From: an uncultured beta proteobacterium
GTDB taxonomy: Bacteria > Pseudomonadota > Gammaproteobacteria > Burkholderiales > Burkholderiaceae_B
Assembly (NCBI GenBank): GCA_903894155.1
Contig: CAITPF010000050.1
Span: forward strand, 1-34,172
DNA length: 34,172 nucleotides
Direction of reading: 5' to 3'
The position numbers and the translations under genes are program-made. The notes under the pieces were generated by a model. The model was given only the letters and a program-made list of their open reading frames with translations. It had not been told where the DNA came from and searched no databases. How positions within the stretch are numbered: the first letter of the stretch is position 1; each line of letters starts with the position of its first letter. Positions 1,031 to 29,619 of this stretch are shown one piece after another.

Positions 1031-2266
1031 ATGAACACGCTGCTCGATGGAGTTGTGGTCCTTGACCTGACGCGCTTTTTCTCCGGCCCACAATGCACCC
1101 TGCTGCTGGCGGGCATGGGCGCCGAGGTCATCAAGATCGACGACCCGCGCTCCGGCGACCCGACGGCCTTCGCCCCGCCGTTCGCCGGGCCTTCAGGCGT
1201 ATCCTTCGACCGGATGACGGACACCGATATGGGGCTTGCCTACCTGAAGCGCCAGCGCGGGAAGAAATCGATCACGCTCGACCTGAAATCGCCAGCCGGA
1301 CGCGATGTCTTCATGGATTTGGTCCGGACAGCCGATGTCGTCGTGGATAACTTCAGTTCCGGGGTCACGACACGCCTGGGCATTGACTACGCAGTTCTCT
1401 CGCAGGTGAACCCCGCGATCGTGTGCTGTTCGCTGACCGGATACGGGCAGACCGGCCCGGACCACGACGCCAAGGCCTATGACCTCATGGTGCAGGCCGC
1501 GGTGGGGCTGGTCGGCCTTTCCGGAACACCCGGGGGCCCGCCCGCAAAGGCAGCGACCGCGATGTCGGACGCGATCGCCGGCGTTTTCGCGGCGACCGGA
1601 ATCGTCTCCGCGCTCTTTCATCGCCAGAAAACCGGCGAGGGTCAGGCGATCGACGTATCAATGGCGGATTGCCTCTTTTCGCTCATCTTCGACGAACCGA
1701 TCGACTGCTATCAGCGACTAGGCGTGCAAACGCGGCAAGGCAACCGGATCATGCGGTTTTCACCCTTCAACGTCTATCGCGCGATCGACGGATGGGTGGC
1801 GATCGGCACGGCAACGCATGCAGAATGGCTGACGCTTCTGGATACCATGGGCCAGGGCGATCTGCCCCGCGAACGCCCCGAGTTCCTGCAGGCAAGCTGG
1901 AGGATCGCCAACAATGACGAGGTCGACGCGGTCGTCAACGCCTGGTTGCGCGACCTGACCTGCGCGCAGGTCATCGAAAGCCTTGGCCGCGCGGGCGTAC
2001 CTTGTAGTCTCGTGCGTTCGATTGACGATGTCCTGGCGTGGGAGCAATTGCGCGCCCGCAAGATGATCGTCGCGCTCACCAACCCGCTGTCCGGGGGCAC
2101 AGTCGACGCCGGCGCGCCCGGCTTCCCGCTCAAGTTCAGCCGCACGCCGGCCTCCTACGACGCGCCCGCTCCCGTGCCGGGCGCGCATACCGATTCGATC
2201 CTCGCCCAGCGCGCCGGATTGACCGAAGCGCAAATTCGCCAATTGCGTGCGGATGGCGTGATCTGA
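1031..2266 (+). CDS. CaiB/BaiF family (class III) CoA-transferase
   Basis: A 411-residue, single-unit family III CoA-transferase of normal length. It carries the N-terminal LDGVVVLDLTRFFSGP strand, GAEVIKIDDPRSGDP, the RGKKSITLDLKSPAG motif near residues 76-90, and VDNFSSGVTTRLGIDY. Asp180, in the context MSDAIAG, sits where the catalytic Asp of formyl-CoA transferase is found, followed by GEGQAIDVSMAD. All features needed for activity are present. The ATG at 1031 is preferred over a TTG at 1016 that would add five residues; neither has a strong ribosome binding site. It follows the IclR gene by 26 bases and probably supplies the CoA-activation step for the acid degraded by the neighbouring dehydrogenases. 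The substrate cannot be told from sequence. Confidence 0.92.
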   Translation: MNTLLDGVVVLDLTRFFSGPQCTLLLAGMGAEVIKIDDPRSGDPTAFAPPFAGPSGVSFDRMTDTDMGLAYLKRQRGKKSITLDLKSPAGRDVFMDLVRTADVVVDNFSSGVTTRLGIDYAVLSQVNPAIVCCSLTGYGQTGPDHDAKAYDLMVQAAVGLVGLSGTPGGPPAKAATAMSDAIAGVFAATGIVSALFHRQKTGEGQAIDVSMADCLFSLIFDEPIDCYQRLGVQTRQGNRIMRFSPFNVYRAIDGWVAIGTATHAEWLTLLDTMGQGDLPRERPEFLQASWRIANNDEVDAVVNAWLRDLTCAQVIESLGRAGVPCSLVRSIDDVLAWEQLRARKMIVALTNPLSGGTVDAGAPGFPLKFSRTPASYDAPAPVPGAHTDSILAQRAGLTEAQIRQLRADGVI

Positions 2267-2396
2267 TGTTTCACGCCTGGAGAATCGCGGCTCCCCCGTT
2301 GCGACGGCGCTATTGCGCAAACGAGCGGCTCTCCACTACCATGAACTTCAGTCGTGCAAGAAAAATAGCTGATAAAGAAAGGATGGAGACAGCACA
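2267..2396 (+). promoter_or_regulatory. Intergenic region before the SDR gene
   Basis: This 130-base gap is the longest inside the first plus-strand gene run and becomes AT-richer toward its 3' end (2341-2390), so it may hold a promoter for the SDR, acyl-CoA dehydrogenase and tandem CoA-transferase genes. A purine-rich ribosome binding site, AAAGGATGGAGA, lies at 2378-2389. I see no promoter pair I would defend and no hairpin. Confidence 0.3.
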
Positions 2397-3182
2397 ATGA
2401 ATTATGGACTTGAAGGCAAGACCGCCCTCGTCGTGGGCGGCGCAACCGGCATCGGCTTTGCCGCGGCAAGCCTGATGGGACACGAGGGCATGCGCATCGC
2501 AGTCGCCGACATCAATGCAGAATCCGCGCGCCTGGGCGCCGAGCGGCTCACGGCGGACGGCATCAAGGCGATCGGCATCCGTGCCGACGTCACCAAACTC
2601 GACGATGTGTTCGCAATGGTTGCCCAGGTCGAGGCTGAACTTGGCCCCGTCGACGTCCTGCTCAACAGTGCCGCGGTGCTCGATGACAAGCTGTTCCTTG
2701 AATCCTCGCCCCAGGATTGGGACCGCATGCTCAAGGTATGCCTTTATGGCCCGATGAACGTGCTGCACGCGGTGCTGCCGGGCATGGTGCAGCGCCGCCA
2801 CGGGCGTGTCATCTGCATGGCGTCCGACTCGGCGCGCGTCGGGCAGGCACGGCTTTCGTACTACGCGGCGGCCAAGGCGGGCGTGATCGCACTGGTGAAG
2901 TCCGTCGCGCAGGAAGTCGGCCCCAACGGCGTCACGCTCAATATCGTGTCGCCCGGCGCAACCAACACCGAGATGCGACAGGTGCGCGAAGAAGGCCTCA
3001 AAGCCTCGATGGGCGAAGAAAAATACGCCCGACGCGTGCAAACCGTTGTCAAGATGTACCCCACCCGCCGCATCGGCGAGCCCGACGACATCGCCAGCGC
3101 GATCCTCTATCTCGCCAGCGCCCAGGCGTCGTGGGTCACAGGGCAGGTGCTGAGCGTCAACGGTGGCTTCGTGATGCCATGA
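2397..3182 (+). CDS. SDR-family dehydrogenase, BadH-like
   Basis: A 261-residue classical short-chain dehydrogenase. The NAD(P)-binding glycine motif GGATGIG is at 14-20. The usual NNAG is changed to NSAA at 90-93. The catalytic triad is Ser143, Tyr156 and Lys160 (YYAAAK), and the C-terminus is the typical VTGQVLSVNGGFVMP. The stretch VLPGMVQRRHGR followed by MASDSARVG closely resembles, from memory, BadH of Rhodopseudomonas palustris (2-hydroxycyclohexanecarboxyl-CoA dehydrogenase), which has VLPGMVERRHGR and IASDAARVG. It probably oxidises a beta-hydroxyacyl-CoA to the ketoacyl-CoA, fitting the BadI-like hydrolase encoded downstream. It is followed after 9 bases by an acyl-CoA dehydrogenase. 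Fold and chemistry are firm; the alicyclic substrate is inferred. Confidence 0.9.
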   Translation: MNYGLEGKTALVVGGATGIGFAAASLMGHEGMRIAVADINAESARLGAERLTADGIKAIGIRADVTKLDDVFAMVAQVEAELGPVDVLLNSAAVLDDKLFLESSPQDWDRMLKVCLYGPMNVLHAVLPGMVQRRHGRVICMASDSARVGQARLSYYAAAKAGVIALVKSVAQEVGPNGVTLNIVSPGATNTEMRQVREEGLKASMGEEKYARRVQTVVKMYPTRRIGEPDDIASAILYLASAQASWVTGQVLSVNGGFVMP

Positions 3183-3191
3183 GGAGCTGAC

Positions 3192-4349
3192 ATGGAATTC
3201 AAACTCAGCCCCGACCAGGAAGCGATTCAGGAGTCCGCGCGCCGCATGGTGGCACGCGATATCGACCCGGTCACGCGCGCGCATGCAGCGGACAAACCAC
3301 TGCCCAAGGCAGCCCTTTTGCAGATCTACAAGGCGTTCGCGGCCATGGGCATCACGGCGCCGCGCATCCCCGAAGCCGAGGGCGGTGGCGGCCTGAGCAT
3401 GCTGAACTACGGGCTTGTGTTCGAGCAGTTGCCCCCGGCACTGGCGATTTCCCTGCTGGCGCACGAATGCACCGCAGCGCGGATCTACGCCGAAAGCTCT
3501 CCGCAGCAACGCGAGCGCCTCCTGCCTGACCTCTTTGCCGGGACGCGAATCTGCTGCACCGGCACCACAGAGCCTGACGTCGGGTCCGACCCCCGCAGCG
3601 TCACCACGCGCGTCGAGCGCGACGGCGACTGGCTTGCGATCACAGGGCGCAAGATGTGGATCACCAACGTCTCCATTTGCGACATCATCAATGTGTCGTG
3701 CGCCGAGGGGCGCGACGATCGCGGGCTCGCCCGAATGCGGCGCATCATCGTCGAGCGCGACGCGAGCCCCTTCGAAACACGCGAGATCCCGACGCTTGGT
3801 CTCAAGCAAGGCCATCTGGGCGAAGCCGTATTCGAGGGCACACGGGTGCCCGCCGACAACGCGCTGGGCTCGTCCGGGGACGTGGCGCGCGTGCTCACGC
3901 TCACCTGGAACGGCAACCGGCCGCTGGTGGGGCTTGCCGCAGTGCACCTGGCGCAGAAGGCGTTCGACGCCGCGCGCGAATACGCCAAGGTCAGGGTTCA
4001 GTTCGGCAAGGCGATCGGCAAGCACCAGCTGGTGCAAAAGAACCTCGCCGATATCGAGACCGCGATCGTCTCGGCGCGACTGCTGTGCTACTACGCACTG
4101 GATTGCATCGACCGCGGCATGCGCGCCAACGGTATCTCGGCGATGGCCAAACGGTACGCCACGACAGCCTGCGAGCAGGCGGTGTCGCTGGCGCTGCATG
4201 TGCATGGCGCGATCGGCATCAGCACCGAGCTCGGCCTGGAGCAACTCTACCGCGACATTCGCATGCTGCCGATCCCCGACGGCACCAACGACATTCTTAC
4301 GCTGATCCAGGGCCGGGAAATCACCGACCTCGAAGCGTTTCGCAACTGA
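3192..4349 (+). CDS. Acyl-CoA dehydrogenase, first of two paralogues
   Basis: A 385-residue FAD-dependent acyl-CoA dehydrogenase that introduces a double bond into an acyl-CoA thioester and passes electrons to ETF. Landmarks are the FAD/substrate loop CTGTTEPDVGSDPRS (122-136), KMWITN, the helix with RVQFGKAIGKHQLVQ (268-282), and HVHGAIGISTELGLEQLYRD (337-354). The usual catalytic Glu of the YEGT motif is Asp363 (IPDGT), and the alternative isovaleryl-type Glu position is Asn242. The protein is clearly paralogous to the dehydrogenase at 11931-13091, sharing long identical runs and the same Asp. It starts 9 bases after the SDR gene with GAGGAG (3181-3186) just upstream, and is followed after 6 bases by a tandem CoA-transferase. 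Function firm, substrate unknown. Confidence 0.94.
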   Translation: MEFKLSPDQEAIQESARRMVARDIDPVTRAHAADKPLPKAALLQIYKAFAAMGITAPRIPEAEGGGGLSMLNYGLVFEQLPPALAISLLAHECTAARIYAESSPQQRERLLPDLFAGTRICCTGTTEPDVGSDPRSVTTRVERDGDWLAITGRKMWITNVSICDIINVSCAEGRDDRGLARMRRIIVERDASPFETREIPTLGLKQGHLGEAVFEGTRVPADNALGSSGDVARVLTLTWNGNRPLVGLAAVHLAQKAFDAAREYAKVRVQFGKAIGKHQLVQKNLADIETAIVSARLLCYYALDCIDRGMRANGISAMAKRYATTACEQAVSLALHVHGAIGISTELGLEQLYRDIRMLPIPDGTNDILTLIQGREITDLEAFRN

Positions 4350-4355
4350 AAACTC

Positions 4356-6395
4356 ATGAACGCAAAACCACTGGAAGGAATCACGGTCGTTGAGCGCGGT
4401 GGGCGACTTTGCGCCGCCGTCGCGGCAACGCTGCTCGCCAATTGCGGCGCCACCGTGATCCGTCTTGAAGAAAGCGCGGGGCGCCCGCAATCGGATCCGT
4501 CATCGTGGCACCTGCACCCGATTGCGCGCGAAGGAAAGCAAATCGTCCAGCCCGATCCGGATCCAGAAGCGCGCGCGGCGCAATGGGACGCGCTGGTGCG
4601 ATCCGCCGACGTGGTGATCCAGTCGGTCGACGTCACGCCCCCGCACCGGGCAGACAGCCCACTCACGGCGGTGTTCACCGGACTCGGGCGCGACGAACCC
4701 GCTTCCCCCTATGGAGCCACGGTCGCTGACGAGTGGCGACTGCAGGCGCTGTGCGGCGTCATGGCGGTGTCAGGTCACCCAGGCCAGGCGCCACAGATCA
4801 CGGCAACCCCGATGCTCGAACTCTGGGCAGGCATCAATGGCGCAACCTCGATCGCCGCGGCGTTGCGCACCGCTGCGGCGTCACGGGGTGTTGTGCTCGA
4901 CCTGGCCATCTATGACACGGCGATGTCGCTGCTGGGCACCTTCCACAACACCGCGATCCTGACGCCCGCGCGTGTCTTTCGCGAAGGTTGCCGGCACCCG
5001 CTGATCGCGCCCTGGAACAGCTACCCGACCGCCGACGGGCGCATCGTCGTCTGCACCACGACCAACGAACACTGGAAGCGCGTGGTCGACCTGATGGGCA
5101 TGCCTGCGCTGGCCGACGATCCGCGATTCGCGCTGATGCCCGACCGGGTTGCGCATGTCGATGAAATCGACGTCCTGATCTCAAACTGGATGTCGGGCAA
5201 AACGACAGCCGAAGCGCTCGATTTGCTTGCCGGCATCGCCATTCCCGCTGGCGAAATCGCGACCATTCCGGACATGATCGCCTCGCAGCGCAAGCAGGGG
5301 CACATCCGGGAAACGGCGAACGACGGCGGCGCGCCACTTGTCTGCCCCGCCCCGATCATCGACATCGACTTTGAGAGTGCCAGCGGCACACCGGCACCCA
5401 AGGCGGCCACACCCACCGGAAACGGCAAGCCGCTGGACGGAATCCGGGTCGTGGAAATCGGCCCCTATACCGCCGGCCCCTTCACGGGCAGGCTGCTCGC
5501 CGCGCTTGGCGCCGAGGTCATCAAGGTCGAGCCTCCCGAGGGCGAAGTCTCGCGCAAGTGGGCACCTGACTTTGGCGGCTTCAGTGGCTACTACCATAAC
5601 TACAACGCAGGCAAGAAGTGCATGCGTCTGGATCTTCGCGATGCTGCGCAAACCGAGCGGCTATGGAGCTTACTGGAAGGGGCGCAGGTGCTGATCCAGA
5701 ACCTGAGTCCGGGCGCGCTTGCGCGGGCCGGTTTCGGCTATGAATCGGTGCGCGCGCGCGCGCCCGGGATCGTCTATTGCTCGATCTCGGGCTTTGGCGC
5801 AAGCGCCAGCCCGCGTCCTGCCGTCGACACGATTATCCAGGCCGCGAGCGGACTCATGGCGCTGGTCGGCAACGACCGCGGCACGCGTGACCAAATGCTG
5901 CTGAAGTCCGGGATTTCCGTGGGGGACCTGATTGCCGCCAACCTGTCCGCCCTGTCGATCATCGCGGCGCTCGCACAGCGTGACCGCAACGGCCAGGGTT
6001 GCCACATTGACGTCTCCATGCAAAGCGCGCTGGCCTGGATGACACAACTCGAGTGGAACACCGCCCCGGACGACCGGATGGACGCCGCGATGCTGTCCTG
6101 CGCAGACGGGTTCGTGTACGCGCCCGCCGTTGACCGGGCGCGCCAGTTCGAAACATCGCCACAAACGACGAGCAAGACCCGCGCGCAGGTCGTGGCCGAA
6201 CTTGCCGAGGCAGGCATCGAGGCCACCCCAGTCCTGGAGCCGCGCGAGGTGATCTCGGTGCACCGCATGGAGCGCCGCATGCTGCTGCAATGGCCGCCCT
6301 TCGGCGACTCCTGGGTTCCGATCCTGTCGTCGCCCCATCGGTGGTCAAGTCGCACGCCGATATCAACCGCTTGTGTCGACCTGGACGCCGCTTAA
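4356..6395 (+). CDS. Tandem two-domain CaiB/BaiF CoA-transferase, copy 1
   Basis: A 679-residue protein made of two CoA-transferase family III units in one chain. Unit 1 (about 1-345) begins LEGITVVERGGRL. It lacks the usual CoA-binding segment of about 70 residues after the first helices and has Glu155 (MLELWAG) at the position of the catalytic Asp. Unit 2 (about 357-679) begins PLDGIRVVEIGPYTAGPF, keeps GAEVIKVEPPEGE and has Asp524 (SVGDLIAAN) at the catalytic position. Unit 2 is also cut short after residue 575. The layout suggests a pseudo-dimer with one working active site. It lies 6 bases after the acyl-CoA dehydrogenase, in the same transcript. A related tandem protein is encoded at 7703-9757. 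Substrate unknown. Confidence 0.9.
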   Translation: MNAKPLEGITVVERGGRLCAAVAATLLANCGATVIRLEESAGRPQSDPSSWHLHPIAREGKQIVQPDPDPEARAAQWDALVRSADVVIQSVDVTPPHRADSPLTAVFTGLGRDEPASPYGATVADEWRLQALCGVMAVSGHPGQAPQITATPMLELWAGINGATSIAAALRTAAASRGVVLDLAIYDTAMSLLGTFHNTAILTPARVFREGCRHPLIAPWNSYPTADGRIVVCTTTNEHWKRVVDLMGMPALADDPRFALMPDRVAHVDEIDVLISNWMSGKTTAEALDLLAGIAIPAGEIATIPDMIASQRKQGHIRETANDGGAPLVCPAPIIDIDFESASGTPAPKAATPTGNGKPLDGIRVVEIGPYTAGPFTGRLLAALGAEVIKVEPPEGEVSRKWAPDFGGFSGYYHNYNAGKKCMRLDLRDAAQTERLWSLLEGAQVLIQNLSPGALARAGFGYESVRARAPGIVYCSISGFGASASPRPAVDTIIQAASGLMALVGNDRGTRDQMLLKSGISVGDLIAANLSALSIIAALAQRDRNGQGCHIDVSMQSALAWMTQLEWNTAPDDRMDAAMLSCADGFVYAPAVDRARQFETSPQTTSKTRAQVVAELAEAGIEATPVLEPREVISVHRMERRMLLQWPPFGDSWVPILSSPHRWSSRTPISTACVDLDAA

Positions 6396-6448
6396 CGGGG
6401 CAGGCTGCGCACTGAGACCGATGGGTCGCAGGCCGGCCAACACGGTGA

Positions 6449-7642
6449 TCAGGAGTTCGCGGGGCCTTTTCGCCGCATCAGGGCGCTTGCGCTGATCACC
6501 AGCGTCGCCACGCCGAAGAGCGCGAAACCAGTGGGATAGCTGCCGGTCGCCACAACGATCGAAGCAAAAACCGCCGGCCCGACCATTCCGCCGAGGTAGG
6601 CGAAAAAGAGCGAGGCGCCTGTCGTGGCCGCCGTGGTTCCGGGTGGCGCGATGCGCGCGACCTCAGCCATGTATACGCCATTCCATCCGATGGCTGCCGA
6701 TCCGAACACCATCATCAGCGCAACGACCGCGGCGAGCGACCACTGGGGTGTCATCAATGCAGTGGCGATCGACGCGAGCGACATGACGACGCCCAGAATG
6801 GCCAGCATCAAATTTGACGAAATAAAGCGATCGGCCACCCATCCCCAGAGGATGCGCGCCACGACGCTGGCAAGCTGGGTCGCAGCCAGCACGAAGCCGG
6901 CCAGCACGAACGGCATTGCCAGATACCCTGTGAGGTAGGCCACGAGATAAGTCGTCAGCGTAAGTTGCACGGTGCAGAATGCGAAGGACATCAGCGCGAG
7001 GCGCCGAAGACCCGCATGCGAGATGACAAACCGGATCGACGCGACGATCTTGCGCACGGAAAAAGGTTTGCCTGGCGTTCTATCGCAATCCAGCGCCTCG
7101 CGCAGTGACGTCGTGGTCAGTATGCAGGCCAGCGTCGCCAGCGCAATGAGCAACGTGTTGACCTGCCACCCGACAAACAGTACGAGCGTCGGTATCAGCA
7201 AGCCCGCGAGGAAGCCACCGAGTGGTACGCCGGTCTGGCGCACGGAGAAGGTCACCGCCATGCGATCGGGTGGCGTCGTCTTCGCCAGGATGTGCGAACT
7301 GGCAGGCGAAATCGGACCATAGCCCAAGCCGATCAGGACCGCACCGAGCACGACCAGCGGCATGAACGCCGTGGCGATCAGCGCCAGGCCGATGGCGCAC
7401 AGAACGAGTCCTGCCTGACACGTGCGGATCGCGCCGTGTCGTGCAACGAGGTTACCCGCGGCAATCGCCGAGAGCATGCCGGAGATGTAGACAATGGAGG
7501 TAACATACCCGACGTACACGGCGGAGAACCCGATCGAATCCGCGGCGACTGGTCCGAAGATCGGGATCGAATTGGTCACCAGCGAAGTGACGACCGTCAA
7601 GGCGAGCATCATCGCCGAAGGCGCAAAAGTTTTCATTGACAT
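6449..7642 (-). CDS. MFS transporter, probable organic-acid importer
   Basis: About 397 residues with twelve predicted membrane segments, typical of the major facilitator superfamily. The loop between segments 2 and 3 (NLVARHGAIRTCQAG) and the matching GWVADRFISSNL in the second half are family signatures. SVRQTGVPLGGFLAGL resembles segment 5 of the aromatic-acid/oxalate-type carriers. It is the only minus-strand gene between two plus-strand catabolic runs and is convergent with the first tandem CoA-transferase, 53 bases away. It probably imports the acid or a related compound across the inner membrane. The start is uncertain: ATG at 7642 is used, ATG at 7636 and GTG at 7657 are alternatives, and none has a clear ribosome binding site. 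Substrate and direction are inferred. Confidence 0.87.
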   Translation of the reverse strand: MSMKTFAPSAMMLALTVVTSLVTNSIPIFGPVAADSIGFSAVYVGYVTSIVYISGMLSAIAAGNLVARHGAIRTCQAGLVLCAIGLALIATAFMPLVVLGAVLIGLGYGPISPASSHILAKTTPPDRMAVTFSVRQTGVPLGGFLAGLLIPTLVLFVGWQVNTLLIALATLACILTTTSLREALDCDRTPGKPFSVRKIVASIRFVISHAGLRRLALMSFAFCTVQLTLTTYLVAYLTGYLAMPFVLAGFVLAATQLASVVARILWGWVADRFISSNLMLAILGVVMSLASIATALMTPQWSLAAVVALMMVFGSAAIGWNGVYMAEVARIAPPGTTAATTGASLFFAYLGGMVGPAVFASIVVATGSYPTGFALFGVATLVISASALMRRKGPANS

Positions 7643-7702
7643 GGCGTTGCCGGGCACTTGACGCCCGCGATCGAACCTGTCTCATCTGGAGGATGGAACT
7701 GA

Positions 7703-9757
7703 GTGTATCCGGTCAAACAACTTCGCGTGCTTTCCGACACGCGCGTCCTTGAGATCGGCACCCGCATCGGGGTCTCGATCTGCTCGGGTCTGCTGCGCGA
7801 CGCAGGGGCCAGCGTGACCTCGGCAGAGCCCACGAGCGTTGCCGACTTACGCGCGGCGGCGGCGCATGCCGACGTCGTGATCACGTCTTCCGACACGGAC
7901 CCGGCCTGGATCGGGCATGCCCTGCATGAGGCTGCCCAGGCCAATCCGCGCATCATCATGGTCGACATCACTGGCGCGGGCGCGTTCGGCCCGCTCGCCG
8001 GCCTGGCGCTTACGGATCTTCAGGTCCAGGCGATGTGCGGACTGATGGACTCAACCGGCGTGACAGGCGCCCCCCCGACCGCCATCGGCTTTCCCGTCGT
8101 CGAGGTTTCCGCGGGCATTTACGGCGCGATTGGCGCAGCCGTCGCCCTGATCTCGCGGGATCGCGATGGCATCGGCCAGGAAGTCGACGTCGCGCTCTAC
8201 GATTGCGCGGTCAATGCGCTGACGACCTTCCTGCCCAAGGCGCTTGCCGGCGGATCGGCGTCGCGCATCGGTAATCGACATCCGCTGGGCGCACCCTGGA
8301 ACACCTACCCGACCAGCGATGGCTGGGCGCTCATCTGCGCCGTATCCGATGACCAGTGGACGCGACTTTCAGGGATGATCGACCCGGCGCTCGCCAGTGA
8401 TTCCCGTTTTCGCGCCGTGGCTGATCGCGTCACGCATGTTGACGCGCTTGATGCAATCGTGTCGCGATGGACATCGTCGTTCTCGACGCTGGATTTGCTG
8501 GATCGCTGCGAGAAATTCAATATCCCCTGCGGTCCGATCATTCGCGTGGAAGATCTTGCCAGCGATCCGAACGTCTTGCATCGCGGCATGATCGTCAGTC
8601 AGAGCGCTGGTGGCGCCGGCCCGGCCGCGCGCATTCCCGGCATACCCTTCAAGATGCACACCGGTCAGGCCATCAAGGGCAAGCGCGCCGCGCGCGATCC
8701 GGGCGCCGGCGATCCCGCCGGACGCCCCGGTCACAAGCCCCCCCTGCGCGGCCTTCGCGTGGTCGAGGTGGGTCAATACACGACCGCACCGCTCGTCGCG
8801 AAGCATCTCGCCGCACTCGGCGCAGAAGTGATCAAGGTCGAACCGGCGGAGGGAGACGCCACGCGCTTCTGGAAGCCGGGGCAAGGCGACATGGGCTACT
8901 TCTTTGCGATGACCAACACCGACAAGTCGGTCGTCACCGTCGATCTCAAGAGCGCCGCCGGTCGCGACAATTTCTGCACGCTCCTGCGCGGCGCCGACGT
9001 GCTCGTCGAAAACATGCGCCCGGGCGCGCTTGAGCGCCTTCTGGGTGCGGGTTGCGCACCCGTCGAATTGAACCCCGCATTGGTGCATTGCGCGATCTCG
9101 GGATTTGGAGTGGATTCGGCCTACCCCGGCCGACCAGCCTTCGACACGATCGCCCAGGCAATGTGCGGCATGATGGACTTGACGCGCGCGGGCGGCGTTC
9201 CGACCAAGGCCGGTATCTCGGCGGCGGACATCCTGGGCGGTCAGGTCGCGCTCCTTGCGATTCTCTGCAGCCTGCGCGATGGCGCCGGGCCGACCCACGC
9301 GGGTGCGAGCGTGGATCTGGCAATGCAGGATGTCGGCGTGTGGGCGACCTACCCCGCCTGGTCAGGCCGGGTATCCCGCGAGGATCACCTGATCGTGTCC
9401 TGCGCCGACGCCGACTACATGGCCGAGGCACCTGCAACCACGCTCGGCGCGTGGGCCCGGCAAGCCGGCATCGCCGTGCAGGACGGGTGCGCGCGATTCC
9501 CTCGCCCTGCCAGCGAGCTCATGGACGCACTGGACGCGGCTGGTGTCACCCTGACCAGGGTTCGGCCGATCGCCGATGTACTGACTCAGCCCCACTTCCT
9601 GGCCCGCTGCCTGAATTCGGGGCGCGATGCCGCGGGGACATTCTGGCCCCTGGTCAACGCACCTTATCGCATGCGACTGACGCCTGCGATCAGCCAGGTC
9701 GTGCCGGGCCCGCTGGGATCGGACAACGCCCGCGTGTTCGGCATTGTGAACGATTGA
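7703..9757 (+). CDS. Tandem two-domain CaiB/BaiF CoA-transferase, copy 2
   Basis: A 684-residue second tandem CoA-transferase starting at a GTG with a strong GGAGG ribosome binding site (7688-7692). Unit 1 (about 1-340) is shortened in the CoA-binding region (AGASVTSAEPTSVADL replaces the GAEVIKVE loop and what follows) and carries Glu134 (PVVEVSAG) where the catalytic Asp should be. Unit 2 (about 347-684) keeps LRGLRVVEVGQYTTAPL, GAEVIKVEPAEGD and Asp509 (SAADILGG). This is the same degenerate-plus-intact layout as copy 1, so the two descend from one fused ancestor. It opens the second plus-strand run and is followed 151 bases later by the old-yellow-enzyme gene. One functional active site per chain is inferred; acyl substrate unknown. 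Confidence 0.9.
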   Translation: MYPVKQLRVLSDTRVLEIGTRIGVSICSGLLRDAGASVTSAEPTSVADLRAAAAHADVVITSSDTDPAWIGHALHEAAQANPRIIMVDITGAGAFGPLAGLALTDLQVQAMCGLMDSTGVTGAPPTAIGFPVVEVSAGIYGAIGAAVALISRDRDGIGQEVDVALYDCAVNALTTFLPKALAGGSASRIGNRHPLGAPWNTYPTSDGWALICAVSDDQWTRLSGMIDPALASDSRFRAVADRVTHVDALDAIVSRWTSSFSTLDLLDRCEKFNIPCGPIIRVEDLASDPNVLHRGMIVSQSAGGAGPAARIPGIPFKMHTGQAIKGKRAARDPGAGDPAGRPGHKPPLRGLRVVEVGQYTTAPLVAKHLAALGAEVIKVEPAEGDATRFWKPGQGDMGYFFAMTNTDKSVVTVDLKSAAGRDNFCTLLRGADVLVENMRPGALERLLGAGCAPVELNPALVHCAISGFGVDSAYPGRPAFDTIAQAMCGMMDLTRAGGVPTKAGISAADILGGQVALLAILCSLRDGAGPTHAGASVDLAMQDVGVWATYPAWSGRVSREDHLIVSCADADYMAEAPATTLGAWARQAGIAVQDGCARFPRPASELMDALDAAGVTLTRVRPIADVLTQPHFLARCLNSGRDAAGTFWPLVNAPYRMRLTPAISQVVPGPLGSDNARVFGIVND

Positions 9758-9908
9758 ATGGCCTAGCCGTCGCAACACGACACAATGGTTTCAACGACGA
9801 ATCGTTCGTGATACTCTGGTTTTCGCCGGGGGCAGACCGTGTCGCTCTCGTTCGCAATGCCGGACGTTTTCGGCGCACATAACGATAATCCTGCAAGGTG
9901 GGGAGACG
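9758..9908 (+). promoter_or_regulatory. Intergenic region before the OYE gene
   Basis: A 151-base gap within the second gene run. It contains GTGGGGAGAC at 9899-9908 as ribosome binding region for the next gene and an imperfect dyad around 9788-9805 (AACGACGAATCGTTCGTG). Length and AT content allow an internal promoter for the OYE, BadI-like and dehydrogenase genes, but I cannot name boxes with confidence. Confidence 0.3.
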
Positions 9909-11018
9909 ATGGCTACAAAACTATTTTCGCCGTTCAAACTGCGTGATCTCGACATTCCGAATCGCATCATGGTTTCCCCGATGGGACAGTATTCCGCCGT
10001 CGACGGATGCGCCGGCAATTGGCACATGATGCACCTGGGCACCATGGCCATCTCGGGCGCCGGCATGCTGGTGATCGAAGCCACCGCGATCAATCCCGTC
10101 GCACGCCTGAGCCACGGGGATTTCGGTTTATGGAACGATGCGCAGGTCGCCGCGCTCGCACCAATCCTCGACTTCTGTCGCAAGGTGGGCGGCGCGCGCA
10201 TCGGGATGCAGTTGTGGCATGCCGGTCGCAAGAGTTCCGTCACGGTGGCCTGGGAGCACCAGCGGGCCATCCCTCTGGACCAGGGCGGGTGGACGCCGCT
10301 TGGCGCCGATGATCGACCCTATCCGCGGCGCAATACTCCGAAGGCGATGGACGCGGACGACATGCGCTGCATTATCCAGGACTATGTCGACGCCACACTG
10401 CGCGCCGACCGGCTCGGGATCGAATTTCTTGAGCTGCATAGCGCCCACGGCTATCTGCTGCACAACTTCCTGTCACCGCTGACGAACAATCGAACGGACG
10501 CCTATGGCGGGAGCCTGGAAAACCGGATGCGGTTTCCGCTTGAAGTCTTCAAGGCAATCCGGCGCGCCTGGCCGGAGCACAAGCCGATGGGTACACGGAT
10601 TTCTTCAATCGACTGGGCACCAGGCGGCTGGACGATCGAGGACAGCGTCGAGTTCACGAAGGCACTGCAAGCGCTGGGCTGCGATTACGTCACCGCCTCG
10701 AGCGGCGGCGCCGTGCCCGAGCAGGCCATCACCGTCGAGCCGGGCTATCAGGTTCCATTTGCCGAGCGCATCCGCCGTGAAACTGGCATCTGCACGGCGG
10801 CCGTGGGGCTCATCACCGAGCCGCGCCAGGCCGAGGAGATCCTCCAGAAGGGTCAGGCCGACATCATCGCGCTGGGCCGCAGAATGCTGTGGGACCCACG
10901 CTGGCCATGGCACGCCGCATCCGAGCTTGGCGAGGAATTCTTTTATCCGAAGCAATACGAGCGCTCGCATCCGACGATGCAGGGCGGCGATTTCCTCGCC
11001 CCTGCGCGCAGCAAGTAA
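9909..11018 (+). CDS. Old-yellow-enzyme family NADH:flavin oxidoreductase
   Basis: A 369-residue FMN-dependent TIM-barrel protein close to the YqjM subgroup. It shows the N-terminal FSPFKLRDLDIPNRI, the QLWHAGRKSS motif, His177 and His180 in LHSAHGYLLHNFLSP (substrate-anion binding), AYGGSLENRMRF, and the C-terminal barrel closure ADIIALGRRMLWDPRW. Residue 26, a redox-tuning Cys in YqjM (SPMCMYS), is Gly here (SPMGQYS). Such enzymes reduce activated C=C bonds; OYE-like proteins also work on dienoyl-CoA or ring-reduced aromatic acyl-CoA (for example 2-naphthoyl-CoA reductase and BaiCD/BaiH). With a BadI-like gene next door, reduction of an unsaturated alicyclic acyl-CoA is the best guess. The short length excludes the additional Fe-S/FAD half of 2,4-dienoyl-CoA reductases. 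Confidence 0.92.
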   Translation: MATKLFSPFKLRDLDIPNRIMVSPMGQYSAVDGCAGNWHMMHLGTMAISGAGMLVIEATAINPVARLSHGDFGLWNDAQVAALAPILDFCRKVGGARIGMQLWHAGRKSSVTVAWEHQRAIPLDQGGWTPLGADDRPYPRRNTPKAMDADDMRCIIQDYVDATLRADRLGIEFLELHSAHGYLLHNFLSPLTNNRTDAYGGSLENRMRFPLEVFKAIRRAWPEHKPMGTRISSIDWAPGGWTIEDSVEFTKALQALGCDYVTASSGGAVPEQAITVEPGYQVPFAERIRRETGICTAAVGLITEPRQAEEILQKGQADIIALGRRMLWDPRWPWHAASELGEEFFYPKQYERSHPTMQGGDFLAPARSK

Positions 11019-11028
11019 ATCCGCAGCG

Positions 11029-11051
11029 GGCCCGCAGGGAGACTGCGGGCC
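11029..11051 (+). other. Perfect 9-bp stem-loop between OYE and BadI-like genes
   Basis: GGCCCGCAG at 11029-11037 pairs perfectly with CTGCGGGCC at 11043-11051 around a five-base loop. No T-run follows, so it is more likely an RNA-stabilising or partial-attenuation hairpin within the operon than an intrinsic terminator. Confidence 0.55.
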
Positions 11052-11087
11052 GCGCACCCAACCACTGATTCACGAGGAACGCCATCC

Positions 11088-11876
11088 ATGAGCGAAGCAG
11101 AATACAAGGACATACTCTACGAAGAGCGCGACGGCGTCGCGACCATCACCTTCAACCGTCCGGAAGTGCTCAATGCCTTTCGCATGGGCACGTACGAGGA
11201 AGTCACCGACGCCATCCATCGCGCGGGCTGGAACAAGTCAGTGGGCGTGATCGTGTTGACTGGCCTGGGACGCGCCTTTGGCGTGGGCGGCGACAGCAGC
11301 GACAAGAAATCGGATCGCGCAGGACGCGGCACGCTCGGGGTGCCTGTCGAAGCATTGCATGCGGCCATCCGTGATGTGCCCAAGCCCGTGATTGCCAAGG
11401 TGCGCGGCTATGCGATCGGTGGCGGCAACGTACTCGTGACACTCTGCGACCTGACAATCGCGTCCGACAACGCCATGTTCGGACAAGTGGGCCCGAAAGT
11501 CGGATCGGTCGATCCCGGATACGGCACCGCCTATCTCGCACGCATCGTCGGCGAAAAGAAGGCCCGCGAAATCTGGTATCTCTGCCGCAAGTACACGGCA
11601 GCCGAAGCGCTGGCGATGGGTCTGATCAATAAATTCGTCCCGGATGCCGAGCTCGACGCCGAAGTCGACAAGTGGTGCGCGGAGATCACGCAGATGAGCC
11701 CGACCGCGATCGCGATTGCGAAGCGCTCGTTCAACGCGGATAGCGAAAATATCCGCGGCATCGCCAACCTCGGGTTCCAGGCGGTATCGCTCTTCTACGC
11801 AACGGATGAGGCCAAGGAAGGCGGCAACGCGTTCCGGGAGAAGCGCAAGCCGCGTTTTCGCGATTTCCAAAAGTAG
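11088..11876 (+). CDS. BadI-like 2-ketocyclohexanecarboxyl-CoA hydrolase (crotonase family)
   Basis: A 262-residue crotonase-fold protein of the MenB/BadI branch. Key stretches are RGYAIGGGNVLVTLCDLTIA (106-125), FGQVGPKVGSVDPGYGTAYL (131-150, with Asp142 at the MenB/BadI catalytic-loop position), GEKKAREIWYLCRKYTAAEA and the C-terminal EKRKPRFRDF. The VDPGYGT form matches, from memory, BadI of Rhodopseudomonas palustris rather than MenB, which has FDGG(F/Y)GS. BadI hydrolyses 2-ketocyclohexane-1-carboxyl-CoA to pimeloyl-CoA by a reverse-Dieckmann ring opening. No other menaquinone gene is nearby, which also argues against MenB. It lies in a run with OYE and acyl-CoA dehydrogenase genes. The ring-opening role is strong; the exact ring compound is unknown. 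Confidence 0.87.
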   Translation: MSEAEYKDILYEERDGVATITFNRPEVLNAFRMGTYEEVTDAIHRAGWNKSVGVIVLTGLGRAFGVGGDSSDKKSDRAGRGTLGVPVEALHAAIRDVPKPVIAKVRGYAIGGGNVLVTLCDLTIASDNAMFGQVGPKVGSVDPGYGTAYLARIVGEKKAREIWYLCRKYTAAEALAMGLINKFVPDAELDAEVDKWCAEITQMSPTAIAIAKRSFNADSENIRGIANLGFQAVSLFYATDEAKEGGNAFREKRKPRFRDFQK

Positions 11877-11930
11877 CCGCGCCTGAGGCGACCTGCAGCC
11901 CCGACCCCATGATGAGACGGAGAACAACCC

Positions 11931-13091
11931 GTGCAATTCCAGCTAAACAGTGAGCAGCGCGAGATCCAGGAGGCCGTGCGCCGCATGGTCGACCGGGAGA
12001 TCAACCCTATCCTTGCCCGGAACGACCCGGATCGCCCGCTGCCCAAGGAGGATGTCAAGTCCATCCTGCAGATTTGCGCCACGCAGGGCCTGACCAGTGC
12101 GCGCGTGCCCGAATCGGCCGGCGGCGCCGGCATGCCCGCGCTCACCTACGGGATCATGGTCGAGCAACTTCCGCCCGTCGCGCTCTTCATGGTGATCGGG
12201 CAGGAGGTCACGGCGACACGCATCTATCACGAGAGCACGCCGGAGCAGAAAGAGCGCTTCCTGCCGGATATCATCGCCGGGCGCCGCATCACCTGCACCG
12301 GCACCACCGAACCCGATGTCGGATCGGATCCACGCGGTGTGAAGACCCGTGCCGACGACGACGGCCCCGACCACTTCCGGGTGACCGGCCGCAAGCTGTG
12401 GATCACCAACGCAAGCATCTGCGACCTGATCAACGTGACGTGTTCCGTGGGCAAGGACGACAGGGGCCTTGCCAACATGATCCGCCTCATGATCGATCGC
12501 GACGAATCCCCTTTCGAGGCCCATGAAATCCCGACACTGGGCCTGCGTCAGGGGCACCTGGGCGAAGTGGCGTTCGACAATTGCCGTGTCCCGAAGGCGA
12601 ACATGCTGGGCGAGGCGGGCGACGCCGCGCGCGTGCTGACGCTGACGTGGCTCGCGAACCGGCCGATCATTGCGCTCTCCGCGGTTCACATGGCACAGCG
12701 CGCGTTTGACCTGGCCCTGCGCTATGCGGGCGACCGCAAGCAGTTCGGCAAGGTGATCGGCGGCCACCAGCTGGTGCAGAAATTGCTGGCCGACACGGCG
12801 ATGGCCATCACCACCAGTCGCCTGCTCTGCTATCACGCACTGGAAATGATTGACGCCGGCGAGCGTGCCAACCAGATATCGGCGATGGCGAAACGCTATT
12901 CGCTGGAAGCCTGCCAGCGGGCGATCTCGATGGCGATGGAGGTACACGGCGCCATGGGCATCAGCCGCGAGCTCGGGCTGGAACAGTTGTTCCGTGACTG
13001 CCGGATGCTGCCCATCCCCGACGGCACCAACCAGATCCTGGCGCTGATCGAGGGACGCGAACTCACGGGGATCCAGGCGTATCGCGCCTAG
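11931..13091 (+). CDS. Acyl-CoA dehydrogenase, second of two paralogues
   Basis: A 386-residue acyl-CoA dehydrogenase starting at GTG 11931. It shares the layout of the 3192-4349 paralogue: CTGTTEPDVGSDPRG near 122-136, KLWITNASICDLINV, RKQFGKVIGGHQLVQ and VHGAMGISRELGLEQLFRD. The base position of the YEGT motif is again Asp (Asp364, IPDGTNQIL), and the alternative Glu position is Asn (LANRPII). An acidic residue near position 92 (GQEVTATRIY here, HECTAARIY in the paralogue) is kept in both. Two dehydrogenases would allow two successive desaturations, as in cyclohexanecarboxyl-CoA metabolism. It is the last gene of the second plus-strand run and ends at a hairpin shared with the convergent hydratase gene. 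Chemistry firm, substrate inferred. Confidence 0.93.
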   Translation: MQFQLNSEQREIQEAVRRMVDREINPILARNDPDRPLPKEDVKSILQICATQGLTSARVPESAGGAGMPALTYGIMVEQLPPVALFMVIGQEVTATRIYHESTPEQKERFLPDIIAGRRITCTGTTEPDVGSDPRGVKTRADDDGPDHFRVTGRKLWITNASICDLINVTCSVGKDDRGLANMIRLMIDRDESPFEAHEIPTLGLRQGHLGEVAFDNCRVPKANMLGEAGDAARVLTLTWLANRPIIALSAVHMAQRAFDLALRYAGDRKQFGKVIGGHQLVQKLLADTAMAITTSRLLCYHALEMIDAGERANQISAMAKRYSLEACQRAISMAMEVHGAMGISRELGLEQLFRDCRMLPIPDGTNQILALIEGRELTGIQAYRA

Positions 13092-13111
13092 CGAAGTGCA
13101 ACGCGGTTGAA

Positions 13112-13145
13112 CGGGTCCGCGCCCTGATGGGCGCGGTTTGACCCG
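13112..13145. terminator. Hairpin between convergent genes, probable bidirectional terminator
   Basis: CCGCGCCC (13117-13124) pairs with GGGCGCGG (13129-13136) around a TGAT loop. An outer CGGGT (13112-13116) can pair with ACCCG (13141-13145) across a TTTG bulge. It sits centrally between two convergent stop codons, where a terminator is expected. The T-run is weak (TTT only), so termination may be partial. Confidence 0.6.
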
Positions 13146-13151
13146 CCCGGG

Positions 13152-13934
13152 TCAGCGCCCCTTGAAGGTGGGCGAGCGCTTTTCCAGGAAGGCGCCAATC
13201 CCTTCGTTCTTGTCTTCGGTGCAGTAGATGGCCGTAACGAGGAACCGTTCGAATTCCACGCCCGACGCCTGGTCCATCTGCATGCCGGTGCGCACCGCGC
13301 GCTTGGCGTAGGCCAGGCTCAGGGGCGCGCGCTGCTCATAAACCTTGACCATGTCCAGCGCGGTCGCCAGGGCCTTGCCCGCCGGGACAAGCCGCTCGAC
13401 GAGGTTGATGCGATAGGCTTCGTGCGCGTCGATCGTATTGCCCGAGAACAGGATATCGAGCGCCTTGCCCATGCCCACCAGCCTGGGCAGACGCTGCGTG
13501 CCTCCGGCGCCGGGCACGGTGCCAATTTTGGAGGATGTCAGCGCGAAGCTCGCGCCGTCGCCTGCGACCCGGATATCGCAGGCCATGACGAACTCGAAGC
13601 CGCCTGTCATGCAAAAACCTTCGATCGCCGCGATGACCGGCTTTTCAAGCTTCTCGATCGTGTCGTGCAGGCGCTCCCAGTGCTTGAGGTAGGCGACGCC
13701 CTCCTTCGGCGATTTCACTTCCATGGCCTCGTTAAGATCGGCGCCCGAGGAAAAATATTGTTCGCCCCCGGTCACGATGACCGCCCGTACCGCGGGGTCA
13801 GCCTCTGCCTCCTGGGCAGCCGCGATCAGTTCGCCCATCAGCTCCTTGCTGAAGGCATTCTTGCGGTTGGGGCGGTTCAGGGTGATGACCAGCGCGGCAC
13901 CCTGGCGAGACAGCGTAATGGTGTTGGTTGTCAT
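13152..13934 (-). CDS. Enoyl-CoA hydratase/isomerase family protein
   Basis: A 260-residue crotonase-family protein. The ATG at 13934 is chosen because GGAG precedes it by about eight bases; an upstream in-frame extension looks non-coding. It has the N-terminal ITLNRPNRKNAFSKELM, the oxyanion-hole region FSSGADLNEA (61-70), GGFEFVMACD with Glu114 at the first catalytic Glu position, and PGAGGTQRLPRLVGMGKAL. The second catalytic Glu of true hydratases (FGQPEILLG) is Ser134 here (FALTSSKIG), so ordinary water addition is doubtful and an isomerase or variant hydratase role is possible. It is the distal gene of the minus-strand liv-type run, 22 bases after the LivG-like ATPase gene. It may supply the BadK-like step of the alicyclic pathway. 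Confidence 0.88.
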   Translation of the reverse strand: MTTNTITLSRQGAALVITLNRPNRKNAFSKELMGELIAAAQEAEADPAVRAVIVTGGEQYFSSGADLNEAMEVKSPKEGVAYLKHWERLHDTIEKLEKPVIAAIEGFCMTGGFEFVMACDIRVAGDGASFALTSSKIGTVPGAGGTQRLPRLVGMGKALDILFSGNTIDAHEAYRINLVERLVPAGKALATALDMVKVYEQRAPLSLAYAKRAVRTGMQMDQASGVEFERFLVTAIYCTEDKNEGIGAFLEKRSPTFKGR

Positions 13935-13956: not shown

Positions 13957-14703
13957 TCAGGCGTCGCCGGACTCGATCGGCACGCCAAGGTAGGCTTCGA
14001 TAACTTCCGGGCGCTCGATGACCGCGTCGGGCAAGCCCTGCGCCAGTTCCATGCCGAAGTTCATTGCAAAAACATAGTCGGACAACTCCACGATGACGTG
14101 GACCAGATGCTCGATCATCACGATCGTCATGCCCGACTGGTGAATCCGGCGCAACACCACCATGAGGTCTTCGACTTCCTCGTGGGTGAGCCCGCCCATG
14201 ACCTCGTCGAGCAGCAACAGCCGGGGGCGCGTGGCCAGTGCGCGCGCGAGCTCGAGCTTCTTCTTGGCCCCCAGCGTCAGCGACCCCGCAGGCATCAAGG
14301 CCTGCCCGTGCAGACCGACGAGCTCGAGCGGCTCGATGCTGTCTTCGCGCGCCTGCGCAATCGTGCGGTGGCGCCCGTACTCGGAAAACAGCGCCCCCGC
14401 CATGACGTTCTCGAGGACCGACATTTCGGCAAAGGGCTGTGTGATCTGGAACGTGCGGCCAATGCCCAGCCGTGCAATGCGGTAGGGTGGCAGCCCCTGG
14501 ATCGGCTTGCCTTCAAACGTGATCGAACCGGAGGTCGGTGTGAGGTACCCCGTGACGAGGTTGAGCAACGTGGTCTTGCCCGCCCCGTTTGCACCGATGA
14601 TGCCGAGGAACTGGCCGGCCTGCACCGAGAGCGTCAGATCATTGATCGCCTTGATCCCGCCAAAGAACTTGCAGAGCCGGGAAACTTCAAGCATTGTCGA
14701 CAT
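13957..14703 (-). CDS. livG: Branched-chain amino acid-type ABC transporter ATPase (LivG-like)
   Basis: A 248-residue ATPase. Walker A is GANGAGKT (37-44), the signature region is LTLGAKKKLELARAL, and Walker B is LLLLDEVMGGL, followed by the LivG-type C-terminal tail (LAQGLPDAVIERPEVIEAYLG). The ATG at 14703 is taken because it overlaps the end of the upstream ATPase gene by 17 bases and a G-rich stretch precedes it; a much longer open frame upstream is only antisense-like extension inside that gene. With its partner ATPase it would drive uptake by the high-affinity HAAT permease encoded just upstream. In catabolic islands such systems commonly carry aromatic or alicyclic acids rather than leucine, so the symbol names the family position only. 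Confidence 0.9.
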   Translation of the reverse strand: MSTMLEVSRLCKFFGGIKAINDLTLSVQAGQFLGIIGANGAGKTTLLNLVTGYLTPTSGSITFEGKPIQGLPPYRIARLGIGRTFQITQPFAEMSVLENVMAGALFSEYGRHRTIAQAREDSIEPLELVGLHGQALMPAGSLTLGAKKKLELARALATRPRLLLLDEVMGGLTHEEVEDLMVVLRRIHQSGMTIVMIEHLVHVIVELSDYVFAMNFGMELAQGLPDAVIERPEVIEAYLGVPIESGDA

Positions 14704-15475
14704 GCGCCCCCCCGGGTTCCCGTTGATCAGACTCACCCGCGACGGGGTCACGACGCGTGCGGCGTGGTGCGAGAAACGATTCCTGCACCATCCTTGAGCC
14801 TCGCAGTTCCGCAGCCGTCCCCTCAAGCGTGATTTGCCCGTTGGCGAGCACGTAGCCCCGATGTGCAATCGACAGCGCGGCGTGCACGTTTTGCTCGACG
14901 AAAAGAATGCTGACACCCTGCTTGGCGGTCTTGACGACCGCCTGGTAGACGTCAACGATGATCTTGGGTGCCAGGCCCAGAGAAGGCTCATCGAGCACCA
15001 GCAGGCGCGGTCGCGCCATCAGCGCGCGACCGATCGCAAGCATCTGCTGCTCACCGCCCGACATGAGCCCGGCCTTTTGGGTCAGACGGTCCTCGAGCTT
15101 GGGGAAAATCTCGAAGACTTCGGCGAGCGTGCGCGCGCGGTGGCGCCGTGCGCTCGGTGAATAGGATCCGAGCAGCAGGTTTTCATGCACTGTGAGATTG
15201 GGGAACACCTGCCGCCCCTCAGGTGCCAGAGCGATCCCCATGTCGACACGCCGATGGGCCGGCACATGATCGATACGCTCGCCGGCGAACGTGAGGTGGC
15301 CCGCCCAGGCAGGCAACAGGCCAGTGAGGACTCGCGTGGTGGTGGTCTTGCCCGCGCCGTTTGCGCCGATCATGCAAACCACTTCGCCTTCTCGCACCGT
15401 GATCGAAAGATCCTGCAACACGGTGGATTCACCGTAGCCCGCGCGGATGTGGGCCATCGAGAGCAATTCGCTCAT
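14687..15475 (-). CDS. livF: Branched-chain amino acid-type ABC transporter ATPase (LivF-like)
   Basis: A 262-residue ATPase. Walker A is GANGAGKTTTT, the signature LMSGGEQQMLAIGRAL, and Walker B LLVLDEPSLGLAP, the last motif being diagnostic of LivF. It ends with VLANGQITLEGTAAEL and a charged tail. Its ATG overlaps the stop of the permease gene by four bases (ATGA), and its own end overlaps the LivG-like start by 17 bases, so the three genes are translationally coupled. It should pair with LivG as the ATP-hydrolysing dimer on the inner face of the membrane. The substrate of the system is unknown. Confidence 0.92.
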   Translation of the reverse strand: MSELLSMAHIRAGYGESTVLQDLSITVREGEVVCMIGANGAGKTTTTRVLTGLLPAWAGHLTFAGERIDHVPAHRRVDMGIALAPEGRQVFPNLTVHENLLLGSYSPSARRHRARTLAEVFEIFPKLEDRLTQKAGLMSGGEQQMLAIGRALMARPRLLVLDEPSLGLAPKIIVDVYQAVVKTAKQGVSILFVEQNVHAALSIAHRGYVLANGQITLEGTAAELRGSRMVQESFLAPRRTRRDPVAGESDQREPGGAHVDNA

Positions 15476-16449: not shown

Positions 16450-16454
16450 GCCGG

Positions 16455-17327: not shown

Positions 17328-17340
17328 GTGCGGCCAACCC

Positions 17341-17385
17341 GCGCAATCGCCGGCGCGCGCCTCAGGCGGCGAGCCGGCATTGCGC
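17341..17385 (-). other. Large stem-loop between binding-protein and permease genes
   Basis: GCGCAAT (17341-17347) pairs with ATTGCGC (17379-17385), and GCCGGC (17349-17354) with GCCGGC (17373-17378), giving 13 pairs with one bulged base. An additional small GCC-TCA-GGC hairpin lies in the loop. No T-run follows on the minus strand. Such hairpins after a binding-protein gene protect its mRNA and lower expression of the membrane genes. Confidence 0.65.
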
Positions 17386-17404
17386 CAAAAAGTTCAGACA
17401 CCAT

Positions 17405-29580: not shown

Positions 29581-29619
29581 GCACACCGGCAGCAACCCAC
29601 TATTTCGAGGACCCATCGC

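Follow-up and report, generated by a model that had tools for sequence, protein, structure and literature searches.

A putative variant of the bad-type alicyclic ring-opening pathway, with fused CoA-transferases and an arginine-loop BadI-like hydrolase, in an uncultured beta proteobacterium

Does contig CAITPF010000050.1 of an uncultured beta proteobacterium (assembly GCA_903894155.1) encode a pathway that opens an alicyclic ring, and how would the acid entering it be loaded onto coenzyme A (CoA)? A preliminary description of the locus had proposed such a pathway between positions 1031 and 13934, driven by CoA-transferases. The window, i.e. the whole analysed stretch of 34,172 nucleotides, corresponds to contig C50; the assembly comprises 502 contigs and 5.15 Mb, with an estimated completeness of 99.45% and an estimated contamination of 5.57%. 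Gene identities were derived from the list of open reading frames (ORFs) and from Pfam and NCBIfam family models, the curated NCBIfam cut-offs being used to decide on membership. As a whole, the observation is real and was confirmed in part, and its interpretation is partly supported: the genes probably make up a variant of the bad-type pathway for alicyclic ring opening.

The putative ring-opening hydrolase (11088-11876, + strand) carries the VDPGYGT loop reported earlier (residue 141). Its placement was analysed in a tree of 97 rows, comprising the window, 80 loci, 10 plasmid loci, three annotated menB genes and three unannotated rows grouping with menB. The BadI and MenB sides are split with a support of 100/100, and the hydrolase lies on the BadI side, within a separate subclade of 22 rows (support 100/97), next to 69 other BadI rows and six MenB-side rows. 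The BadI equivalog model TIGR03210 gave 404.8 bits, under its cut-off of 467.6; in comparison, three subclade relatives scored 402-418.6 bits, and two other BadI proteins 473.6 and 500 bits. As for the MenB models, both scores were below the cut-offs (PRK07396, 325.7 vs. 380 bits; TIGR01929, 297.8 vs. 342.7 bits), and these two best-scoring MenB models trail the BadI model by 79 and 107 bits, respectively. Ser140 and Asp142, corresponding by alignment to Ser-161 and Asp-163 of MenB, are kept in all 97 rows. This placement and the conservation of the catalytic residues lend good support to a BadI-like mode of action.

The hydrolase being itself MenB (1,4-dihydroxy-2-naphthoyl-CoA synthase) is extremely improbable. 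MenB is the nearest family having solved structures, and the best 50 rows listed in a fold search with the hydrolase model are all MenB-type; however, this identity was rejected on the family-model scores and on the fully supported split. Moreover, most subclade rows show P, V/I/L, E at columns 86-88, where most MenB-side rows show N, V, L, and no other men enzyme was found among the window proteins run through the family models. Clustering with MenB had been named beforehand as an outcome contrary to the ring-opening proposal; since the hydrolase sits on the BadI side, this objection falls. The AlphaFold (AF2) model of the hydrolase has a mean predicted local distance difference test (pLDDT) score of 89.5, with the lowest confidence in block 71-80 (mean 60), as might be expected from MenB, whose corresponding loop is disordered when no ligand is bound. 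The same genome encodes another BadI/MenB-like crotonase (45%; L123, 7771-8655; G000:C224), which adjoins a further CaiB transferase.

The subclade is marked by a single substitution in the predicted substrate loop. Column 77 holds Arg in 22/22 subclade rows (codon 11316-11318 in the window) and Tyr in 69/69 other BadI and 6/6 MenB-side rows. By alignment and by its spacing to Arg-91, it matches Tyr-97 of Escherichia coli MenB (PMC3637252). In MenB, this residue and Tyr-258 bind the ortho-carboxyl of OSB-NCoA, a substrate analogue, through short hydrogen bonds (PMC3637252). At the column of the Tyr-258 partner, all 75 rows outside the subclade have Tyr, as do 18 subclade rows, the other four having Phe. 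Since the MenB counterpart touches the carboxyl of a substrate analogue, the fixed Arg77 suggests that the ring bears a further group, acidic or strongly polar, that is bound here; this is the most specific prediction that the sequences permit. The change also argues for a substrate other than plain cyclohexanecarboxylate, without naming one. The substrates suggested earlier (cyclohexanecarboxylate, perillate, a naphthenic acid) are tentative, as are the pinonic-type acids and tricarballylate-type products that were considered as well. The idea that the loop had gained two positive charges was dropped: Lys73 is discounted because five of the six MenB-side rows carry Arg at its column and because Arg-91 of E. 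coli MenB is a loop-helix contact (PMC3637252), which leaves Arg77 as the only new charge.

Concerning the CoA-transferases, four genes had been reported, and the count proved to be three genes with five PF02515 halves: a single enzyme of the CaiB type (1031-2266, +; 1.1e-108) and two fused tandems, x2a (4356-6395, +; PF02515 in three stretches) and x2b (7703-9757, +). With PF02515 scores of 364-410 bits against a gathering cut-off of 23.3, all three belong to class III. The single enzyme has the active-site Asp at residue 151, and both tandems have it in their C-half (Asp491 in x2a, Asp481 in x2b), while the N-half motif has Asp in one tandem and Glu in the other (Glu126 of x2a); the C-half Asp is invariant in 12/12 aligned tandem rows. 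BbsEF, the succinyl-CoA:(R)-benzylsuccinate CoA-transferase, is a two-subunit enzyme, as its PDB titles also suggest, and DddD is a two-domain enzyme of class III. The AF2 model of x2b (pLDDT 87.0; predicted template modelling score 0.91; low confidence at 1-5 and at the inter-half link 322-342) matches, by Foldseek, class III transferases including BbsEF (PDB 9fn0, 9fol) at 24-25% identity. The fold is shared, with separate subunits in BbsEF vs. one chain in the window tandems, and a tandem fusion may represent a heterodimer in one chain. Tandem transferases at E ≤ 1e-100 were found in 3/150 genomes, the window's own counted.

The preliminary description had also read the genes together as one pathway, and the recurrence of several of them beside related hydrolases in other bacteria supports this. 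Neighbours were counted in the 22 subclade rows vs. the 69 other BadI rows, and again in a filtered set (90% dereplication, more than 8 kb on both sides; 12 vs. 28). A short-chain dehydrogenase/reductase (SDR) of the window type is a neighbour in 10/22 vs. 0/69 rows (filtered, 5/12 vs. 0/28), a window-type acyl-CoA dehydrogenase (ACAD) in 10/22 vs. 0/69, a tandem transferase in 11/22 vs. 1/69 (filtered, 6/12 vs. 1/28) and an Old Yellow Enzyme (OYE) in 6/22 vs. 0/69. MmgE/PrpD (4/22 vs. 0/69) and 3-hydroxy-3-methylglutaryl-CoA lyase (HMGL; 3/22 vs. 1/69) follow the same direction. Conversely, AliA or AliB neighbours occur in 0/22 vs. 32/69 rows (AliB, filtered, 0/12 vs. 12/28), BadH of the ligase-linked type in 0/22 vs. 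46/69, and any ligase-family protein in 4/22 vs. 33/69. At the whole-genome level, a tandem transferase match at E ≤ 1e-70 was found in 16/19 subclade genomes and in 0/20 genomes with other BadI; one of the 16 (that of L032) matches in one half only, within a 730-residue open frame. A chance neighbourhood was rejected on these counts and on the whole-genome search.

The distribution of the hydrolase and of the tandem transferases is patchy: of 31 further genomes from the same genus as the window, a single one carries a hydrolase copy above 50% identity (98%). One branch of the subclade (L037, L084 and L114, from Sphaerimonospora, Pararhodobacter and Sinorhizobium fredii GR64) is a mixed form, with tandem transferase, ligase-family and thiolase-type neighbours. 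MmgE/PrpD proteins were recognised by Pfam at L040 (3557-4951), L036 (6379-7776) and L030 (749-2176), the family of the first two occurring in 7/24 loci compared. At L038 (7593-9867), a thiamine pyrophosphate enzyme and an RraA-like aldolase (Pfam) lie beside BadI, and both families occur in 4/24 loci (L038, L040, L041 and L043).

The SDR (2397-3182, +) is BadH-like and putatively a ring hydroxyacyl-CoA dehydrogenase: BadH (TIGR03206) is its best NCBIfam model with 218 bits (cut-off 431.2), followed by FabG with 199.5. The motifs VLPGMV.RRHGR and ASD.ARVG cited earlier are indeed present, but they are weak evidence for a likeness to BadH, the strict pattern fitting 18/49 BadH-type neighbours and only 2/10 window-type SDRs. 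The two ACADs (ACAD1, 3192-4349, +; ACAD2, 11931-13091, +) score 149.8 and 132.3 bits with AliB TIGR03207 (cut-off 575.35). Both carry a PDGT motif, with Asp in place of the usual Glu base (for ACAD2, by alignment to 1ukw). All 11 window-type rows and all 30 AliB-type rows share this Asp; the residue before it, usually Tyr, is Pro in the former (11/11) and Gly in the latter (30/30). A smaller residue at this place is tied to alpha-substituted or cyclic substrates, Phe, Leu and Val being named, and Gly for beta-branched ones; Pro is left unnamed (PMC11659651). The Asp at the base position is a feature shared with AliB that confers no membership, overall similarity being low.

The OYE gene (9909-11018, +; PF00724) is of the NamA/YqjM-like type. 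Its best NCBIfam matches, the OYE part of PRK08255 (404.6 bits) and NamA (337 bits), are both below the cut-offs, and its nearest solved chain is 5ocs. Because PRK08255 was top-scoring, the 2-aminobenzoyl-CoA pathway was entertained as an explanation of this gene and then dropped, the nearest solved chains being plain OYEs and the gene having no hydroxylase part. Finally, the enoyl-CoA hydratase (ECH) of the crotonase family (13152-13934, -; PF00378, 5.7e-64) may take the BadK role; its family occurs in 11/24 loci compared.

As for activation, the earlier statement that no ligase is visible holds for the window, in which no ORF best-matched a ligase query and no protein run through the family models is a ligase. 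The claim that known routes begin with a CoA ligase does not hold for every one of them: in the chc route of Geobacter metallireducens, the alicyclic acid is activated by a CoA-transferase (PMC9795900). Activation by CoA transfer, which would spend no ATP, is the simplest reading, short of proof. It has to be weighed against the alternative that cyclohexanecarboxylate or a terpenoid acid is degraded by an ordinary bad-ali pathway, with its ligase and AliB on other contigs and the nearby transferases serving another substrate. Several observations, in this paragraph and the next, count against the variant pathway, and the first of them favour this alternative. Other contigs hold ligase-family proteins (the AliA model gave eight hits at E ≤ 1e-60, the best with 435 of 792.3 bits) and an AliB-type gene over the cut-off (703 bits; G000:C416), so activation by a ligase could still take place; AliB-type genes at E ≤ 1e-120 occur in 10/19 subclade and 15/20 control genomes. 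The idea that subclade genomes lack AliB was therefore rejected (three of the ten are over the cut-off, vs. seven of the 15 in controls). In addition, a ligase-family neighbour exists in four of the 22 subclade loci, and the similar monoterpene mrc cluster of Castellaniella uses the ligase GeoC (PMC4109377). Because the estimated contamination is 5.57%, genes on other contigs may be foreign to the genome. Against the alternative, no match exceeds the AliA cut-off in this genome, a cut-off to be read with caution as the ligase of the AliB-linked control locus L044 also falls slightly short (781.5 bits). AliB lies at a contig end adjoining a sulfate permease, here and in the sister genome, and no bad-type gene was recognised beside it in the stretch read in either. 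The tandem transferase tracks the subclade and the loop Arg is fixed. Taken together, we consider an ordinary bad-ali pathway unlikely.

Other points against the variant pathway concern the families and residues themselves. The cut-offs for BadI, BadH and AliB were all missed by the window proteins, so that the likeness to these enzymes does not extend to strict membership, and the BadH score of the SDR is only 18.5 bits above that of FabG. Inspected by eye, the ACADs presumably lack the glutarate-binding Arg of glutaryl-CoA dehydrogenase. The OYE enrichment is non-significant after filtering (2/12 vs. 0/28; p = 0.085), and a single CaiB neighbour is not clearly enriched (8/22 vs. 11/69; p = 0.067). 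Three subclade genomes, those of L036, L046 and L062, gave no tandem transferase in the whole-genome search (E ≤ 1e-70); their hydrolases form one branch of the tree. Conversely, two tandem transferases and an HMGL stand beside the BadI of L077, which lies outside the subclade and carries Tyr in its loop. As Tyr-97 of MenB makes no contact with the product analogue HNA-CoA (PMC3637252), the role of Arg77 might be structural instead.

Parallel islands help to place the window genes. Plasmid 2 of Pseudorhizobium flavum YW14, typed as conjugative, carries in one stretch MmgE/PrpD, OYE (52% identity to the window), CaiB, SDR (60%), ACAD1 (64%), a tandem transferase (38%) and IclR, as well as hydratases (one at 58%), HMGL, ACADs, BadI (68%), CaiB, Liv proteins (LivK, 63%), MaoC, CitE, EtfBA, ETF-QO, a major facilitator superfamily (MFS) carrier and pyruvate carboxylase. 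Neither a ligase nor a thiolase is among the listed genes of this island, whose gene table is known to be incomplete. Its HMGL is over an NCBIfam subfamily cut-off (249.1 vs. 246), and its CitE-type lyase is nearest to RipC, below cut-off. In the Pseudooceanicola sp. genome of L038, one contig holds CaiB, SDR (65%), ACAD1 (68%), a tandem transferase and IclR-ECH-HMGL-ACAD before BadI. In the window's own genome, contig C218 has ECH (61%), HMGL (51%) and ACAD (62%) in the same order as in the YW14 island, to which these identities refer, with CaiB upstream. Since the genome holds five HMGL-family matches at E ≤ 1e-10, the link to C218 is suggestive. In a proposed limonene route, too, a 3-substituted glutaryl-CoA would be split at a tertiary carbon (PMC12583861).

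Such neighbours bear on another explanation, in which the subclade hydrolase acts on a different beta-oxo acyl-CoA, open-chain or with a five-membered ring, and the cluster is a branched dicarboxylate pathway. The Tyr to Arg change throughout the subclade would fit, and branched di- or tricarboxylates are suggested by HMGL, CitE, MaoC and MmgE/PrpD in the surroundings of related copies; however, Ser140 and Asp142 are kept in 22/22 subclade rows as elsewhere, and an SDR, a hydratase and ACADs with the AliB-like Asp stand alongside. This explanation is rather unlikely.

For the variant bad-type pathway, the reactions, the CoA donor and the substrate, as read from the gene content, the subclade, its neighbourhood and the residue changes, would be as follows. 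An organic acid would enter through the Liv system, and the class III CoA-transferases would load it with CoA taken from, for instance, succinyl-CoA, or shift CoA from one carboxyl group to another, the two tandem fusions acting as built-in heterodimers. ACAD1 and ACAD2 would desaturate the ring beside the thioester, the crotonase would hydrate the desaturated ring acyl-CoA, the SDR would oxidise the product to a 2-oxo acyl-CoA, and the BadI-like enzyme would open the ring hydrolytically to a substituted pimelyl-CoA. The OYE may reduce a ring or conjugated double bond, and a 3-substituted glutaryl-CoA could then pass through a hydratase/HMGL/ACAD module like that of C218.

The other components reported earlier were recovered by the ORFs and family models, as were the SDR, ACADs, OYE, hydrolase and crotonase. 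An IclR-family regulator lies at 207-1004 (+; PF01614, 4.7e-37; PF09339). The MFS carrier (6449-7657, -) has weak matches: TIGR00881 and TIGR00893 each give some 51 bits, well short of the cut-offs. The LivG, LivF, LivM, LivH and LivK importer genes span 13957-18661 (-), LivG being recognised by ABC_tran, LivK by PF13458 and the others via annotated Pseudorhizobium liv genes. Farther along, a peptide ABC-type solute-binding protein (21558-23162) is followed downstream by a diaminopropionate ammonia-lyase (above cut-off), a carbon-nitrogen hydrolase and an amidase of the hydantoinase/carbamoylase family (27134-30585); this set may serve the use of N-carbamoyl compounds or amino acids. Two TctC/Bug binding proteins run in opposite directions (31726-32763 and 32934-33929), and the family holding the ORF at the latter position recurs in 5/24 loci compared.

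These results define by sequence a subclade of ring-opening hydrolases, set apart among the 91 BadI-side rows by Arg vs. Tyr at one column and associated with an unusual CoA-transferase of fused type. A search for alicyclic degraders that relies on AliA/AliB or on the BadI equivalog model would overlook or mislabel this type of cluster. Should the extra-carboxylate reading be true, the breakdown of carboxylated alicyclic compounds would be directly testable in a cultured carrier. A bolder proposal, which we hold to be quite improbable, is a ligase-free ring-opening route for alicyclic polycarboxylates in several bacterial groups, in which tandem transferases would shuttle CoA intramolecularly and the Arg-loop BadI would cleave a carboxylated ring. 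If so, this could be a dedicated enzymatic entry into the carboxyl-rich alicyclic matter (term from PMC5395668) of dissolved organic matter; judging by record names, which are no proof of habitat, some carriers seem to be marine.

Among the literature matches listed, from which subscription journals are mostly absent, neither this cluster nor tandem CaiB fusions beside BadI were described. The closest known system is bad-ali of Rhodopseudomonas palustris and Aromatoleum sp. CIB (PMC9795900), with its BadI-family hydrolase, BadH-type SDR, acyl-CoA dehydrogenase, hydratase and hydrolytic ring opening. Unlike it, the window cluster has no AliA or AliB and possesses CoA-transferases including tandem fusions, an OYE and a loop Arg for Tyr; the regulator BadR is of the MarR/TetR families there (MarR in Gram-negatives; PMC9795900), whereas that of the window is an IclR protein. 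Compared by description, the Geobacter chc route shares activation by a CoA-transferase but proceeds via a cyclohexadiene and BamR/Q/A, BadI being unused (PMC9795900). The mrc genes of Castellaniella defragrans (PMC4109377) and the lrc genes of Syntrophobacteraceae LiM6 (PMC12583861) share a BadI-like hydrolase, but they rely on the GeoC ligase or on perillyl-CoA from limonenylsuccinate. In Azoarcus KH32C, MaoC and a CoA ester lyase are close to a BadI-like hydrolase, presumably the MrcE relative named in that literature, which falls outside the subclade and has a loop Tyr. Finally, ThnP/ThnO of anaerobic naphthalene degradation (PMC11659651) likewise combine a CoA-transferase and an acyl-CoA dehydrogenase acting on a cyclohexane dicarboxylate, ThnP being a family I transferase (PMC11659651), whereas the three of the window all belong to class III.

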